A stretch of DNA of 55,916 nt from an uncultured Paludibacter sp. (GTDB lineage Bacteria; Bacteroidota; Bacteroidia; Bacteroidales; Paludibacteraceae). Position 1 is the stretch's first letter, and every line of letters begins with the position of its first letter. Below the pieces are notes generated by a model, which had not been told where the DNA came from, did not search any database, and saw only the letters and a program-made list of their open reading frames with translations. The stretch covers positions 2,170,037 to 2,225,952 of the forward strand of contig LR026962.1 in NCBI GenBank assembly GCA_900498215.1, in the 5' to 3' direction. Shown piece after piece: positions 13,637-47,699 of the stretch. The translations under genes and the position numbers were made by a program.

Positions 13637-14869
13637 TTAAGAAAATAAAATGGAACTGTCTCCATAACTCAAAAAACGAAAATCGTTTGCAAGAGCATAA
13701 TCGTAAATTTGTTTCCATTTCCCTTTTACAAAAGCTGAGACCAAAAGCAATAATGTACTTTTTGGTTGATGAAAATTAGTAATCATCGCATCCACAATTT
13801 TAAAATCATATCCCGGTTTTATCATTATTTGTGTATCGGCGTGAAGCGTATCTAATTGATTTTCCTCCAAATAATCAATGATGTTTTGTAATGATTGATG
13901 TGGAGGAATATTTTCGTGAGATTGATAAGGCTCCCATTGTTTAACCTGCATCACGCAAAAGTCCTCTGTCAGCTGACGGAGATTTAGGGGGCTTGCTCCT
14001 ATCCAGTATAAACTTTCCAATGTACGCACAGAAGTAGTTCCCACAGCAACAATATTTCCCAATTTTTGCTGAATATGTTTAATCGTTTCTAATTTCACTG
14101 AAATAGTTTCGGCGTGCATCGTGTGGTCTGTAATATCTTTCGATTTTACCGGTTGAAAAGTTCCTGCGCCTACGTGAAGCGTAAGTTCTTCCGTTTCGAT
14201 ATTTTTCTTTTTTAGCGTTTTAAAAACCTCCGGAGTAAAATGAAGTCCTGCCGTAGGCGCCGCAACCGAACCTTCAATTTTGGAATAAACGGTTTGGTAT
14301 GTTTTTTTGTCGTTTTCTTCCGTTTTGCGGTGCAAATAAGGCGGAATCGGCAATTCTCCTACAGCCATCAGTATTTCGGAGAAAGAAATATTTTCATCGT
14401 CCCAGCTAAAACGGATGTGATATGTATTTTCTTCCGTAGAAATCATTTCAGCTGAAAAAATCACTTTTTGTTCGTTCCAATTTATTTCCTGAGACAGTTT
14501 TCCTTCTTTCCACTTTTTTAGATTTCCTACCAAACATTTCCACACGCAACTTTTTGTAGATGAAAGAGATAAAGCGTAATCTGAAGGAGAAATCGGTTCC
14601 AGACAAAACACTTCAATTCTGGCTCCGGTAGGTTTGTGGAAAATCAAACGCGCCTGAATTACGCGCGTATTATTGTAAACAAGCAAAGCATTTTCAGGCA
14701 AATATTGACCTATATTGTAAAATTTATCCTCTGAAACTTGGTGGTTTTTAAAAATCAATAATTTAGACGAATCGCGTTTTTCTAATGGATATTTTGCAAT
14801 TCGTTCATCAGGCAAATTGTAATTGAAATCTTCAATAAAAATCGGGTCGGTATAGTCGAAATTCTTCAA
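13637..14869 (-). CDS. queA: tRNA preQ1(34) S-adenosylmethionine ribosyltransferase-isomerase
   Basis: About 410 aa from a TTG at 14867-14869; the open frame extends to 14917, but that extension contains the predicted promoter box. The enzyme transfers and rearranges the ribose of S-adenosylmethionine onto preQ1 at wobble position 34, making epoxyqueuosine. Family landmarks: LPDERIAKYPLEKRDSSKLL near the N-terminus, AAPTAGLHFT, LHVGAGTFQPV, and NFHQPKSTLLLLVSAF. The stretch translated from the dispersed repeat at 13957-13994 (SPLNLRQLTEDF) is an in-frame insertion after ESLYWIGA, before QWEPYQ. The queuosine precursor transporter gene lies at 46983 in this same window. Confidence 0.9.
   Translation of the reverse strand: MKNFDYTDPIFIEDFNYNLPDERIAKYPLEKRDSSKLLIFKNHQVSEDKFYNIGQYLPENALLVYNNTRVIQARLIFHKPTGARIEVFCLEPISPSDYALSLSSTKSCVWKCLVGNLKKWKEGKLSQEINWNEQKVIFSAEMISTEENTYHIRFSWDDENISFSEILMAVGELPIPPYLHRKTEENDKKTYQTVYSKIEGSVAAPTAGLHFTPEVFKTLKKKNIETEELTLHVGAGTFQPVKSKDITDHTMHAETISVKLETIKHIQQKLGNIVAVGTTSVRTLESLYWIGASPLNLRQLTEDFCVMQVKQWEPYQSHENIPPHQSLQNIIDYLEENQLDTLHADTQIMIKPGYDFKIVDAMITNFHQPKSTLLLLVSAFVKGKWKQIYDYALANDFRFLSYGDSSILFS
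13957..13994 (+). repeat. Dispersed G/C-rich repeat, copy D, inside queA
   Basis: A copy with AAAAGTCC at the left and GATTTAGGGGGCTT at the right, and a CTGTCAGCTGACGG centre that pairs with itself. It lies inside queA and adds about 12 codons without a frameshift. It reads as SPLN on the minus strand, in the same phase as copy B in hutI. Confidence 0.7.
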
Positions 14870-14895
14870 GTGGAAATAAATTTTGTAATTTTGCA

Positions 14896-14903
14896 CAAAA
14901 ATA
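14896..14903 (-). promoter_or_regulatory. -7 promoter element for queA
   Basis: TATTTTTG on the minus strand. The transcription start would be near 14889, about 20 nt upstream of the TTG at 14869. This argues against the earlier TTG at 14917 as the start. Confidence 0.5.
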
Positions 14904-14922
14904 CAAATAAACTTCAATATTT

Positions 14923-46839: not shown

Positions 46840-46848
46840 TATCTTTGC
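46840..46848 (+). promoter_or_regulatory. -7 promoter element for the queuosine precursor transporter
   Basis: TATCTTTGC starting one base after the yidD stop. The predicted start near 46855 gives a leader of about 128 nt, which ends in the pseudoknot at 46946-46978. Confidence 0.65.
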
Positions 46849-46945
46849 ACGCTTTTTTGAATAAGGAATAAGGAATAAAAAACAAAGATTAAAAAGTAAA
46901 AAAGTTTTGAACAATTAAAAACAATCAAATAATAATTATTAATTC

Positions 46946-46978
46946 ACGTGTGCTTGAACACCACGTTAAAAAAACAAG
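46946..46978 (+). promoter_or_regulatory. Candidate class-I preQ1 riboswitch
   Basis: A 33-nt H-type pseudoknot. P1 is ACGTG (46946-46950) with CACGT (46962-46966). The loop holds CTTG (46953-46956), which pairs with CAAG (46975-46978) after an A-rich linker TAAAAAAA. The segment ACACC before the P1 3' strand matches the ligand-contact region of B. subtilis preQ1-I, with C61 of 46961 as the expected preQ1-binding C. CAAG ends 4 nt before the ATG, so ligand binding would block translation initiation. The downstream gene is the expected target. Seen by eye, not scored with a model. Confidence 0.75.
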
Positions 46979-46982
46979 AAAA

Positions 46983-47663
46983 ATGAAAAAACAAGTTTCA
47001 GTCGCTTTTATGATAAGCGGCATCGTTTTCACTACCTGTCTTATTGTTTCCAACATTATTGAACAAAAACTTATCAATATTGGTCCTATTGAAGCTACTG
47101 CGGGGCTGTTGATTTTTCCTATTTCCTATATTTTGAATGATATTATTGCAGAAGTGTGGGGATATAAAAAAGCCCGTTTGATAATATGGACCGGATTTTT
47201 GATGAATTTCTTTGCTGTTTTCGTGTTCCGTTTAAGCATTGTTGTGCCGGGTTCCGAGAATTTTACTCATCAAAATGAATTTGCTTTGGTGCTGGGAAAC
47301 ACGCTGAGAATTACCATTGCCAGTTTTATCGCTTTTCTTTTTGGTTCATTTACTAATGCATTTGTTATGAGTAAAATGAAAATTATGCAAAAAGGGAGGA
47401 ATTTTTCGGCTCGTGCGGTGGTTTCCACACTTTTTGGCGAAGGATTTGATTCTTTGATATTTTTCAATATTGCTTTTTATGGGATGATTCCCACGAAAGC
47501 CATCTTAGTATTAATCCTCACTCAAACATTAATGAAAACCGGATACGAAATTATCGCACTTCCTTTAACGAATTACATTGTACGTTGGGTGAAAAAACAC
47601 GAAGATACCGATGTGTACGACGAAGGAATTTCGTACAATCCACTGAAAGTGAAAGATATATAA
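46983..47663 (+). CDS. Queuosine precursor transporter (YhhQ/QPTR, VUT family)
   Basis: 226 aa with about six membrane helices. Family hallmarks: ATAGLLIFPISYILNDIIAEVWGYKKAR near the N-terminus (ISYILNDIIAEVWG is the VUT signature), RNFSARAVVSTLFGEGFDSLIFF and QTLMKTGYEIIALPLT. It imports preQ1, preQ0 or queuine for tRNA modification. The ATG at 46983 is chosen; a GTG at 46950 lies inside the riboswitch. queA (13637) is the next pathway gene in this window. A terminator follows. Confidence 0.9.
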   Translation: MKKQVSVAFMISGIVFTTCLIVSNIIEQKLINIGPIEATAGLLIFPISYILNDIIAEVWGYKKARLIIWTGFLMNFFAVFVFRLSIVVPGSENFTHQNEFALVLGNTLRITIASFIAFLFGSFTNAFVMSKMKIMQKGRNFSARAVVSTLFGEGFDSLIFFNIAFYGMIPTKAILVLILTQTLMKTGYEIIALPLTNYIVRWVKKHEDTDVYDEGISYNPLKVKDI

Positions 47664-47670
47664 TTAAATA

Positions 47671-47699
47671 AAAAAGCCGAATAAAAATTCGGCTTTTTT
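47671..47699 (+). terminator. Terminator after the transporter gene
   Basis: AAAAAGCCGAA, loop, TTCGGCTTTTT with a T-run; 11-bp stem. Confidence 0.88.

Follow-up and report, generated by a model that had tools for sequence, protein, structure and literature searches.

The yhhQ gene of an uncultured Paludibacter sp. starts four nucleotides downstream of a short, A-rich sequence that resembles a preQ1 riboswitch, and no Shine-Dalgarno (SD) site precedes its start codon. The locus therefore raises two questions: is this sequence a preQ1 aptamer, and how might an aptamer control a start codon that has no SD site to sequester? The window referred to below is the whole stretch of DNA that was analysed, 55,916 nucleotides long, and coordinates count from its first letter.

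Anatomy and class of the element

Read directly, positions 46946-46978 are ACGTG-TGCTTGAACAC-CACGT-TAAAAAAA-CAAG, followed by AAAA and ATG. The coordinates and anatomy given in the preliminary description (a P1 stem, a CTTG/CAAG pseudoknot and an A-rich linker) are exact, as listed here with the basis of each feature in brackets:

46840..46847, + strand: Bacteroidota-type −7 box TATCTTTG, promoter candidate (sequence; consensus count)
46946..46950, + strand: P1 5′ strand, ACGTG (sequence, relatives' model, covariation)
46951..46961, + strand: P1 loop, TGCTTGAACAC (sequence)
46951..46952, + strand: L1; T 46951 corresponds to the U conserved in the ligand pocket (93 of 94 aligned members have T)
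46953..46956, + strand: P2 5′ strand, CTTG, loop side of the pseudoknot (P2 cells 98.9% paired)
46957..46961, + strand: L2, AACAC; C 46961 corresponds to the specificity C and the A before it to the type II signature (AC in 92 of 92)
46962..46966, + strand: P1 3′ strand, CACGT (sequence, relatives' model, covariation)
46967..46974, + strand: L3, TAAAAAAA, A-rich linker at gene positions −16 to −9 (sequence)
46975..46978, + strand: P2 3′ strand, CAAG, at gene positions −8 to −5 (sequence, covariation)
46979..46982, + strand: AAAA spacer between P2 and ATG (sequence)
46983..46985, + strand: yhhQ start codon, ATG (sequence)
46983..47663, + strand: yhhQ/VUT queuosine-precursor transporter, membrane protein of 226 aa (Vut_1, TIGR00697)
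47001..47021, + strand: terminator-like hairpin and T-rich stretch inside the start of yhhQ (1 found, 0.1 expected)
47675..47699, + strand: terminator-like hairpin AGCCGAA/TTCGGCT and T run after yhhQ (sequence, by eye)

The standard RNA library recognizes the element poorly. A check against the Rfam preQ1 model had been proposed at the outset, and it failed: RF00522, aligned over its whole length (positions 1-45), gave 18.5 bits with a gathering score of 39, which we count against the riboswitch reading. Across the whole genome the element ranked third among 17 weak RF00522 matches, tied in bits with the second; the two loci ranked above it (L001 and L002) adjoin no queuosine gene by eye and were set aside. 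At gathering thresholds Rfam found just two tRNAs in the whole window, and the models of preQ1-II (RF01054) and preQ1-III (RF02680) had no match in the window at gathering or in 46840-47040 at E-values up to 10. The match of lowest E-value near the element, to manA-II (28.4 bits, gathering 100), was rejected as an overlap with the A-rich start region. RF00522 passed its cutoff in none of 392 genomes drawn from the order, and it gave no PreQ1 match at E-values up to 1 in 20 of the loci found by our own model (below). Pseudoknot-free folding of the leader was likewise no better than that of shuffled sequences (z +1.71), a second result counted against a riboswitch.

The bases of the element nevertheless agree with one known type. 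In a 2024 review of preQ1 riboswitches (PMC11625349), type II of class I is defined by AC before the P1 3′ strand, and a G-C ceiling pair and a specificity C are named. The window element has a short P1, this AC, a P2 with the G-C pair that forms the pocket ceiling, an A-rich L3 and the conserved U of L1; it has AC where type I has UC, and its loop (TGCTTGAACAC) and tail (CAAGAAAA) are not the pyrimidine-rich loop and AAGG tail of type III. Judged from its bases by the published criteria, the putative aptamer is thus of preQ1 class I, type II. Given that the printed Rfam consensus has UC, the mark of type I, a poor RF00522 score is unsurprising for this RNA, and failure at the RF00522 cutoff is a limit of the model rather than a structural feature of the class.

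Conservation, covariation and gene context in relatives

A protein search for yhhQ relatives in the same family and order gave matches in 29 of 61 genomes. The motif lies right before the ATG in 24 of the 26 better-matching loci (L009-L034, own genome included); by eye, the leaders farther upstream are unrelated between close relatives, and the motif is near-identical. The two exceptions are L022, which has decayed and lost the tail, and L034, which has no element. The L022 leader (G008, same family) keeps CTACTTGAAAACCAG and has neither a P1 mate nor an A-rich tail, and is apparently a decayed riboswitch. Weaker or partial matches were left out of the 26: L037 and L038 start inside the protein, and in the more distant L035 and L036 the motif was not seen by eye. 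A second set, sharing a few genomes with the first, comprised 56 yhhQ loci found by protein in named genomes; of the 55 with upstream DNA, 54 carry the element, 51 of them close to the ATG, and L070 has none. Some members come from named Parabacteroides genomes (L082, L083 and L086). Both pairings are kept in close relatives, where their loss had been named beforehand as a finding that would speak against the proposal.

Members also vary in form. Before yhhQ in L061 and L075 (1445-1503), whose records are labelled Candidatus Gallipaludibacter and uncultured Bacteroidales, the P1 strands are AAGCTG/CAGCTT and L3 contains an inserted hairpin, GAGC CAAG GCTC; P2 has three pairs instead of four in L065, L066 and L094; and in L077 the aptamer lies 56 nt before the yhhQ ATG (1410-1501). 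In a separate subgroup (L024/L092, L027, L029 and L161) the loop reads ATTCTAG or ATTCCAG and the tail ACAGG or ACAAG, and P2 could apparently form only with a bulged A or in a shifted register. For counts across members we used an aptamer finder that requires ACC, a P2 loop ending in TTG or TAG, at least three of four pairs and an A-rich L3, and its counts are conditioned on these features. It returned 137 loci, or 136 (window included; 125 distinct) after removal of the spurious L154, and distances were taken to the first ATG within 20 nt. It missed L022, L030, L034, L061, L067, L070, L075, L158 and L161, among which L030, L061, L075, L158 and L161 carry a form of the element.

An initial MAFFT alignment of 50 sequences (A1) misplaced the tails and was superseded by A2 and then A3. 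From A2, 30 relatives picked for equal spacing, we built a covariance model, R1, leaving out the window and seven same-genus loci; some named training loci (for example L040 and L052-L054) may still be congeners. R1 scored the window element at 39.7 bits (E 6.2e-6), with the next match in the window at 11.8 bits; in the whole genome the element came first, 16 bits ahead of the runner-up at 23.8. The fitted set A3 holds 94 matches from 93 of 98 sources, in 89 distinct rows; L027, L030, L031, L065 and L066 had no match in this fitting at E 0.1.

In the 89 distinct rows of A3, 91.9% of cells pair. Changes on both sides of a pair occurred in 25 cells, 23 in P1 and 2 in P2, compared with 3.1 in shuffles; the covariation score was 0.118 versus 0.025 shuffled, and none of 500 shuffles was as high by either measure. 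Sliding the partner by up to three columns lowered the score to 0.030 or less. The four inner pairs of P1 form in 355 of 356 cells, and three of its five pairs change on both sides (C-G to A-U in 9 rows, U-A to A-U in 13, and one more at the outer pair). The 5-bp P1 first described exists in the window, but its outermost pair forms in just 28 of 87 distinct rows, and relatives mostly have 4 bp. P2 is near-invariant: compensatory changes occur at one of its four pairs, in one row each (TTTG/CAAA in L091 and ATTG/CAAT in L162), which we count against the riboswitch reading; L030, unmatched by R1, reads CTAG/CTAG, a further compensatory form. Covariation, which had been proposed as a check, is therefore clear in P1 and amounts to two cells in P2. 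The pocket bases are conserved, with T after P1 in 93 of 94 members, AC before the P1 3′ strand in all 92 that have letters there, and an A preceding the tail C in all 94.

The genes behind the element are queuosine genes. The protein encoded directly downstream in the window matches Vut_1 (PF02592, 155.5 bits) and, at 111.4 bits with a cutoff of 50.95, the NCBIfam equivalog TIGR00697, 'queuosine precursor transporter', a curated model that upholds the original reading of this gene; its score of 57.8 bits with NF008406, the E. coli-type preQ0/preQ1 transporter model, is below the cutoff of 252 and is counted against. Upstream of the element lie yidD and the RNase P protein gene. The hairpin and T run at 47675..47699 suggest that yhhQ forms a single-gene transcript.

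R1 matched 4 of 392 genomes drawn across the phylum at E 0.01, all from the window's order, and 65 places in 56 of 392 genomes drawn from that order at E 0.02 (own genome included), in a search whose strict filters lost weak members. All 65 places precede queuosine genes: 55 precede yhhQ, nine precede queC (L103, L105, L111, L121, L134, L136, L149, L157 and L160) and one precedes a gene of the PTPS family, which includes QueD (L163, PF01242). The yhhQ context is partly expected, as the training sequences of R1 were yhhQ leaders and at least 6 of the 55 places are among them again (G013, G038, G054, G059, L114 and L130), and this too is counted against; the independent part of the evidence is the ten places outside yhhQ together with the absence of other contexts. 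In nine genomes the element occurs twice, before yhhQ and again before queC or the PTPS gene. At 34 of the 55 yhhQ places queC and/or queF lie in the same stretch, often after yhhQ; the yhhQ of the window stands alone.

These results bear on whether the element is a riboswitch at all. The likeness to an aptamer could be accidental, in a conserved A-rich element of the translation start or in a hairpin bound by a protein, and A-rich start regions are indeed general in Bacteroidota and P1 is short. Such an element, however, would have to account for the covariation, for pocket bases that vary little or not at all among the 94 aligned members and for the position of all 65 places before queuosine genes, and we consider this explanation very improbable. 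We are nearly certain that the window element is a preQ1-I aptamer; the original assignment to this class is supported by the R1 match, the covariation and the queuosine context, and is refined here to type II.

The natural ligand could in principle be preQ0 or another 7-deazaguanine bound by the same fold. Passages of PMC10622847 report that E. coli YhhQ carries both preQ0 and preQ1, and that preQ0 binding by the type II Tte aptamer is 17-fold weaker than preQ1 binding and still at nanomolar level. The pocket bases are nevertheless those of type II aptamers, and the host has QueC, QueF and TGT families and two QueA-family genes; with TGT, QueA, QueC and QueF families present preQ1 is expected in the cell, and with QueF and QueA it would be the last free intermediate. 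A ligand other than preQ1 is accordingly improbable. One QueA-family gene lies within the window at 13637-14917 on the − strand (NF001140, 366.3 bits, cutoff 324), and the other at G000:C1:1080678. By eye, the leader of the host's queC does not contain the aptamer motif.

Position at the start codon and the level of control

The aptamer ends 4 nt before the ATG in the window, and in 107 of 136 members the gap between P2 and the first ATG is 3-5 nt. An SD-like core occurs in the last 20 nt in just 8 of the 131 members with a near ATG, and the window has none. Adenine stands at each of positions −10 to −13 in 112 to 127 of these 131 members, and at −14 in 96. Translational members of the preQ1-I class normally have their tail pairing near the start codon, so that, of the features first called unusual for the class, the lack of an SD site is unusual and the position of the tail is not.

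According to passages of PMC6847099, adenines at −3, −6, −12 and −13 favour initiation in Flavobacterium johnsoniae, which lacks SD sites, and a role proposed for the A-enrichment at −14 to −11 is to serve bS1. In the window, −6 falls within P2 and −12 and −13 within L3, and therefore ligand-induced docking would remove adenines that favour initiation. The A-rich L3 is also part of the aptamer in bacteria that use SD sites, and its position alone is no proof of dual use.

We consider it likely, by analogy with solved relatives, that preQ1 represses translation of yhhQ through this riboswitch; ligand, direction and level of control are taken from those relatives, and what was obtained here is the conservation and covariation, the gene context, the placement next to the ATG and the absence of an SD site. 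Without preQ1, the A-rich stretch upstream of the ATG would be single-stranded and ribosomes would initiate there. PreQ1 would pair with C46961 and be held by U46951 and an adenine of L3, as the pocket contacts of solved relatives suggest, and binding would lock P2 (CTTG/CAAG) and the A-rich L3 onto P1. The resulting pseudoknot would bury positions −5 to about −15, end 4 nt before the ATG and block the 30S subunit, and import of queuosine precursors would be shut off, again in the direction suggested by solved relatives.

The leader of which the aptamer would form the end has a promoter candidate and, in many members, an additional hairpin. TATCTTTG at 46840-46847 is what we take to be a Bacteroidota −7 box, presumed consensus TAnnTTTG; the 160 nt upstream of P1 contain this consensus in 113 of the 136 members, the window among them, compared with 11.6 in mononucleotide shuffles. 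The promoter first placed at 46840 thus has its box, enriched among members, but no clear −33 element upstream of it by eye. Many members, several named Paludibacter loci among them, have a hairpin of variable sequence that ends directly at the 5′ edge of P1 (for example L103, L157, L160, L121, L025, L042 and L124). Of 125 distinct members, 50 have a stem scoring at least 14 within 6 nt of P1, and in 42 of them the distance is 0, compared with 1.55 in dinucleotide shuffles; the 42 have fewer independent origins, part of them coming from related leaders with TTTTGC/GCAAAA stems. The hairpin is absent in the window (score 8, at chance level) and in the seven same-genus loci (none above 6.5). Sections 4 and 11, the abstract and other passages of PMC11625349 contain no description of such a hairpin that we saw.

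The hairpins inside the genes bear on the level of control. That of the window (47001-47021) begins 18 nt into yhhQ, and between ORF nucleotides 10 and 80 26 of 112 distinct members, counting the window, have such a hairpin (score at least 13, at least five T), compared with 5.3 (s.d. 2.7) in synonymous-codon shuffles; given the relatedness of the members and 10 shuffles per setting, this excess is a lead. Farther into the ORF (nucleotides 100-170, 200-270, 300-370 and 400-470), counts of 8, 2, 7 and 6 compare with 7.5, 2.0, 5.1 and 3.7 expected, no clear excess. The hairpins fall in two main registers, at ORF nucleotides 19-22 (window, L010-L013, L016, L017, L071 and others) and near nucleotide 36; L049, L093, L106 and L107 also have one, and in five of the seven same-genus loci it sits at the same place.

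The same aptamer could therefore act wholly or partly on transcription, either through a terminator in the leader or through attenuation, in which blocked initiation would let the early-ORF hairpin end transcription. Besides the early-ORF excess, three observations are consistent with this: in L077 a hairpin followed by eight T lies between aptamer and ATG, a possible switch to transcriptional control; at L105, L111, L149 and L136 the aptamer and queC are about 70-170 nt apart, a spacing not shared by nearly all yhhQ copies; and for the type II riboswitch of B. subtilis PMC11625349 describes control of transcription. In the window, however, the 4 nt between P2 and ATG are too few to hold a leader terminator, and the spacing is equally short in most members; 86 of the 112 members have no early-ORF hairpin at the threshold used; and the excess itself is weakened by relatedness and the small number of shuffles. 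We judge transcriptional control unlikely. Because early-ORF hairpins exceed synonymous shuffles, our confidence in a purely translational reading was lowered by a small step and stays high.

Within translational control, we tentatively propose, and doubt slightly more than we believe, a platform free of SD sites. The aptamer's own L3 (about −9 to −15) may double as the A-rich initiation enhancer of Bacteroidota, and preQ1 may dock this A-tract into the P1 groove, so that the enhancer rather than an SD site is removed; the 5′ hairpin stacked on P1 may complete the fold in many members, and the early-ORF hairpin may add attenuation in some once ribosome loading stops.

Comparison with known preQ1 riboswitches

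Types I and II of class I are already known from Bacteroidota and other phyla, after McCown et al. 2014 as cited in passages of PMC11625349; the class itself, Bacteroidota included, is thus not new, and the SD-less platform is the newer point. Passages of the same review predict translational riboswitches in organisms that do not use SD sites and note that missing SDs weaken bioinformatic searches. Among the matches listed in a search of open-licence literature, mostly titles and the starts of abstracts, we found no experimental study of a Bacteroidota preQ1 riboswitch, and the term 'preQ1' is absent from the main text of a B. thetaiotaomicron transcriptome paper. That paper cites a preprint in which Bacteroides TPP riboswitches reportedly act on transcription or translation, and SD-less translational riboswitches are hence not without precedent. 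The set in 56 of 392 genomes of the order makes the review's prediction testable. Probable preQ1 control of yhhQ and queC across this order goes unnoticed by the standard RNA library, and the window element is worth more as an entry to the order-wide SD-less set that the library misses than on its own.

The tail of the Tte aptamer, like that found here, reads ACAAG. The Tte and Bsu type II riboswitches, as described in passages of PMC11625349, share with the window element the H-type pseudoknot, the short P1, AC before the P1 3′ strand, the G-C pair at the base of P2, the A-rich L3 and queuosine genes downstream; the P2 tail of the window, in contrast, holds no SD and is CAAG followed by A's, and many members here, although not the window, add a hairpin that abuts P1. 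RF00522 has in common with the element P1 and the A-rich tail, and differs in its consensus UC before the P1 3′ strand, as in type I.

Candidates of type I occur in the same order. Sub-threshold RF00522 matches at E 0.01 were found in 10 of 392 order genomes, and 7 of the 10 fetched loci look like type I and lie before queC (L170-L173, L175, L177 and L178, near position 1501; 25.5-30.4 bits, below the RF00522 cutoff). They read AGACAG TTCGTAACCATC CTGTCT ... ACTAGG, and variants. Behind the L171 candidate a hairpin and a T run are visible by eye. These candidates share order, pathway and class with the window element, and differ in having UC before the P1 3′ strand (CATC, then CTGTCT), a tail of ACTAGG or ACTAAGG, and long spacers.

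The type III riboswitch of E. coli, according to passages of PMC10622847, is a small pseudoknot that controls yhhQ at the level of translation, as the window element probably does; it has a pyrimidine-rich loop and an AAGG SD tail, whereas the window element has the loop TGCTTGAACAC and no SD.
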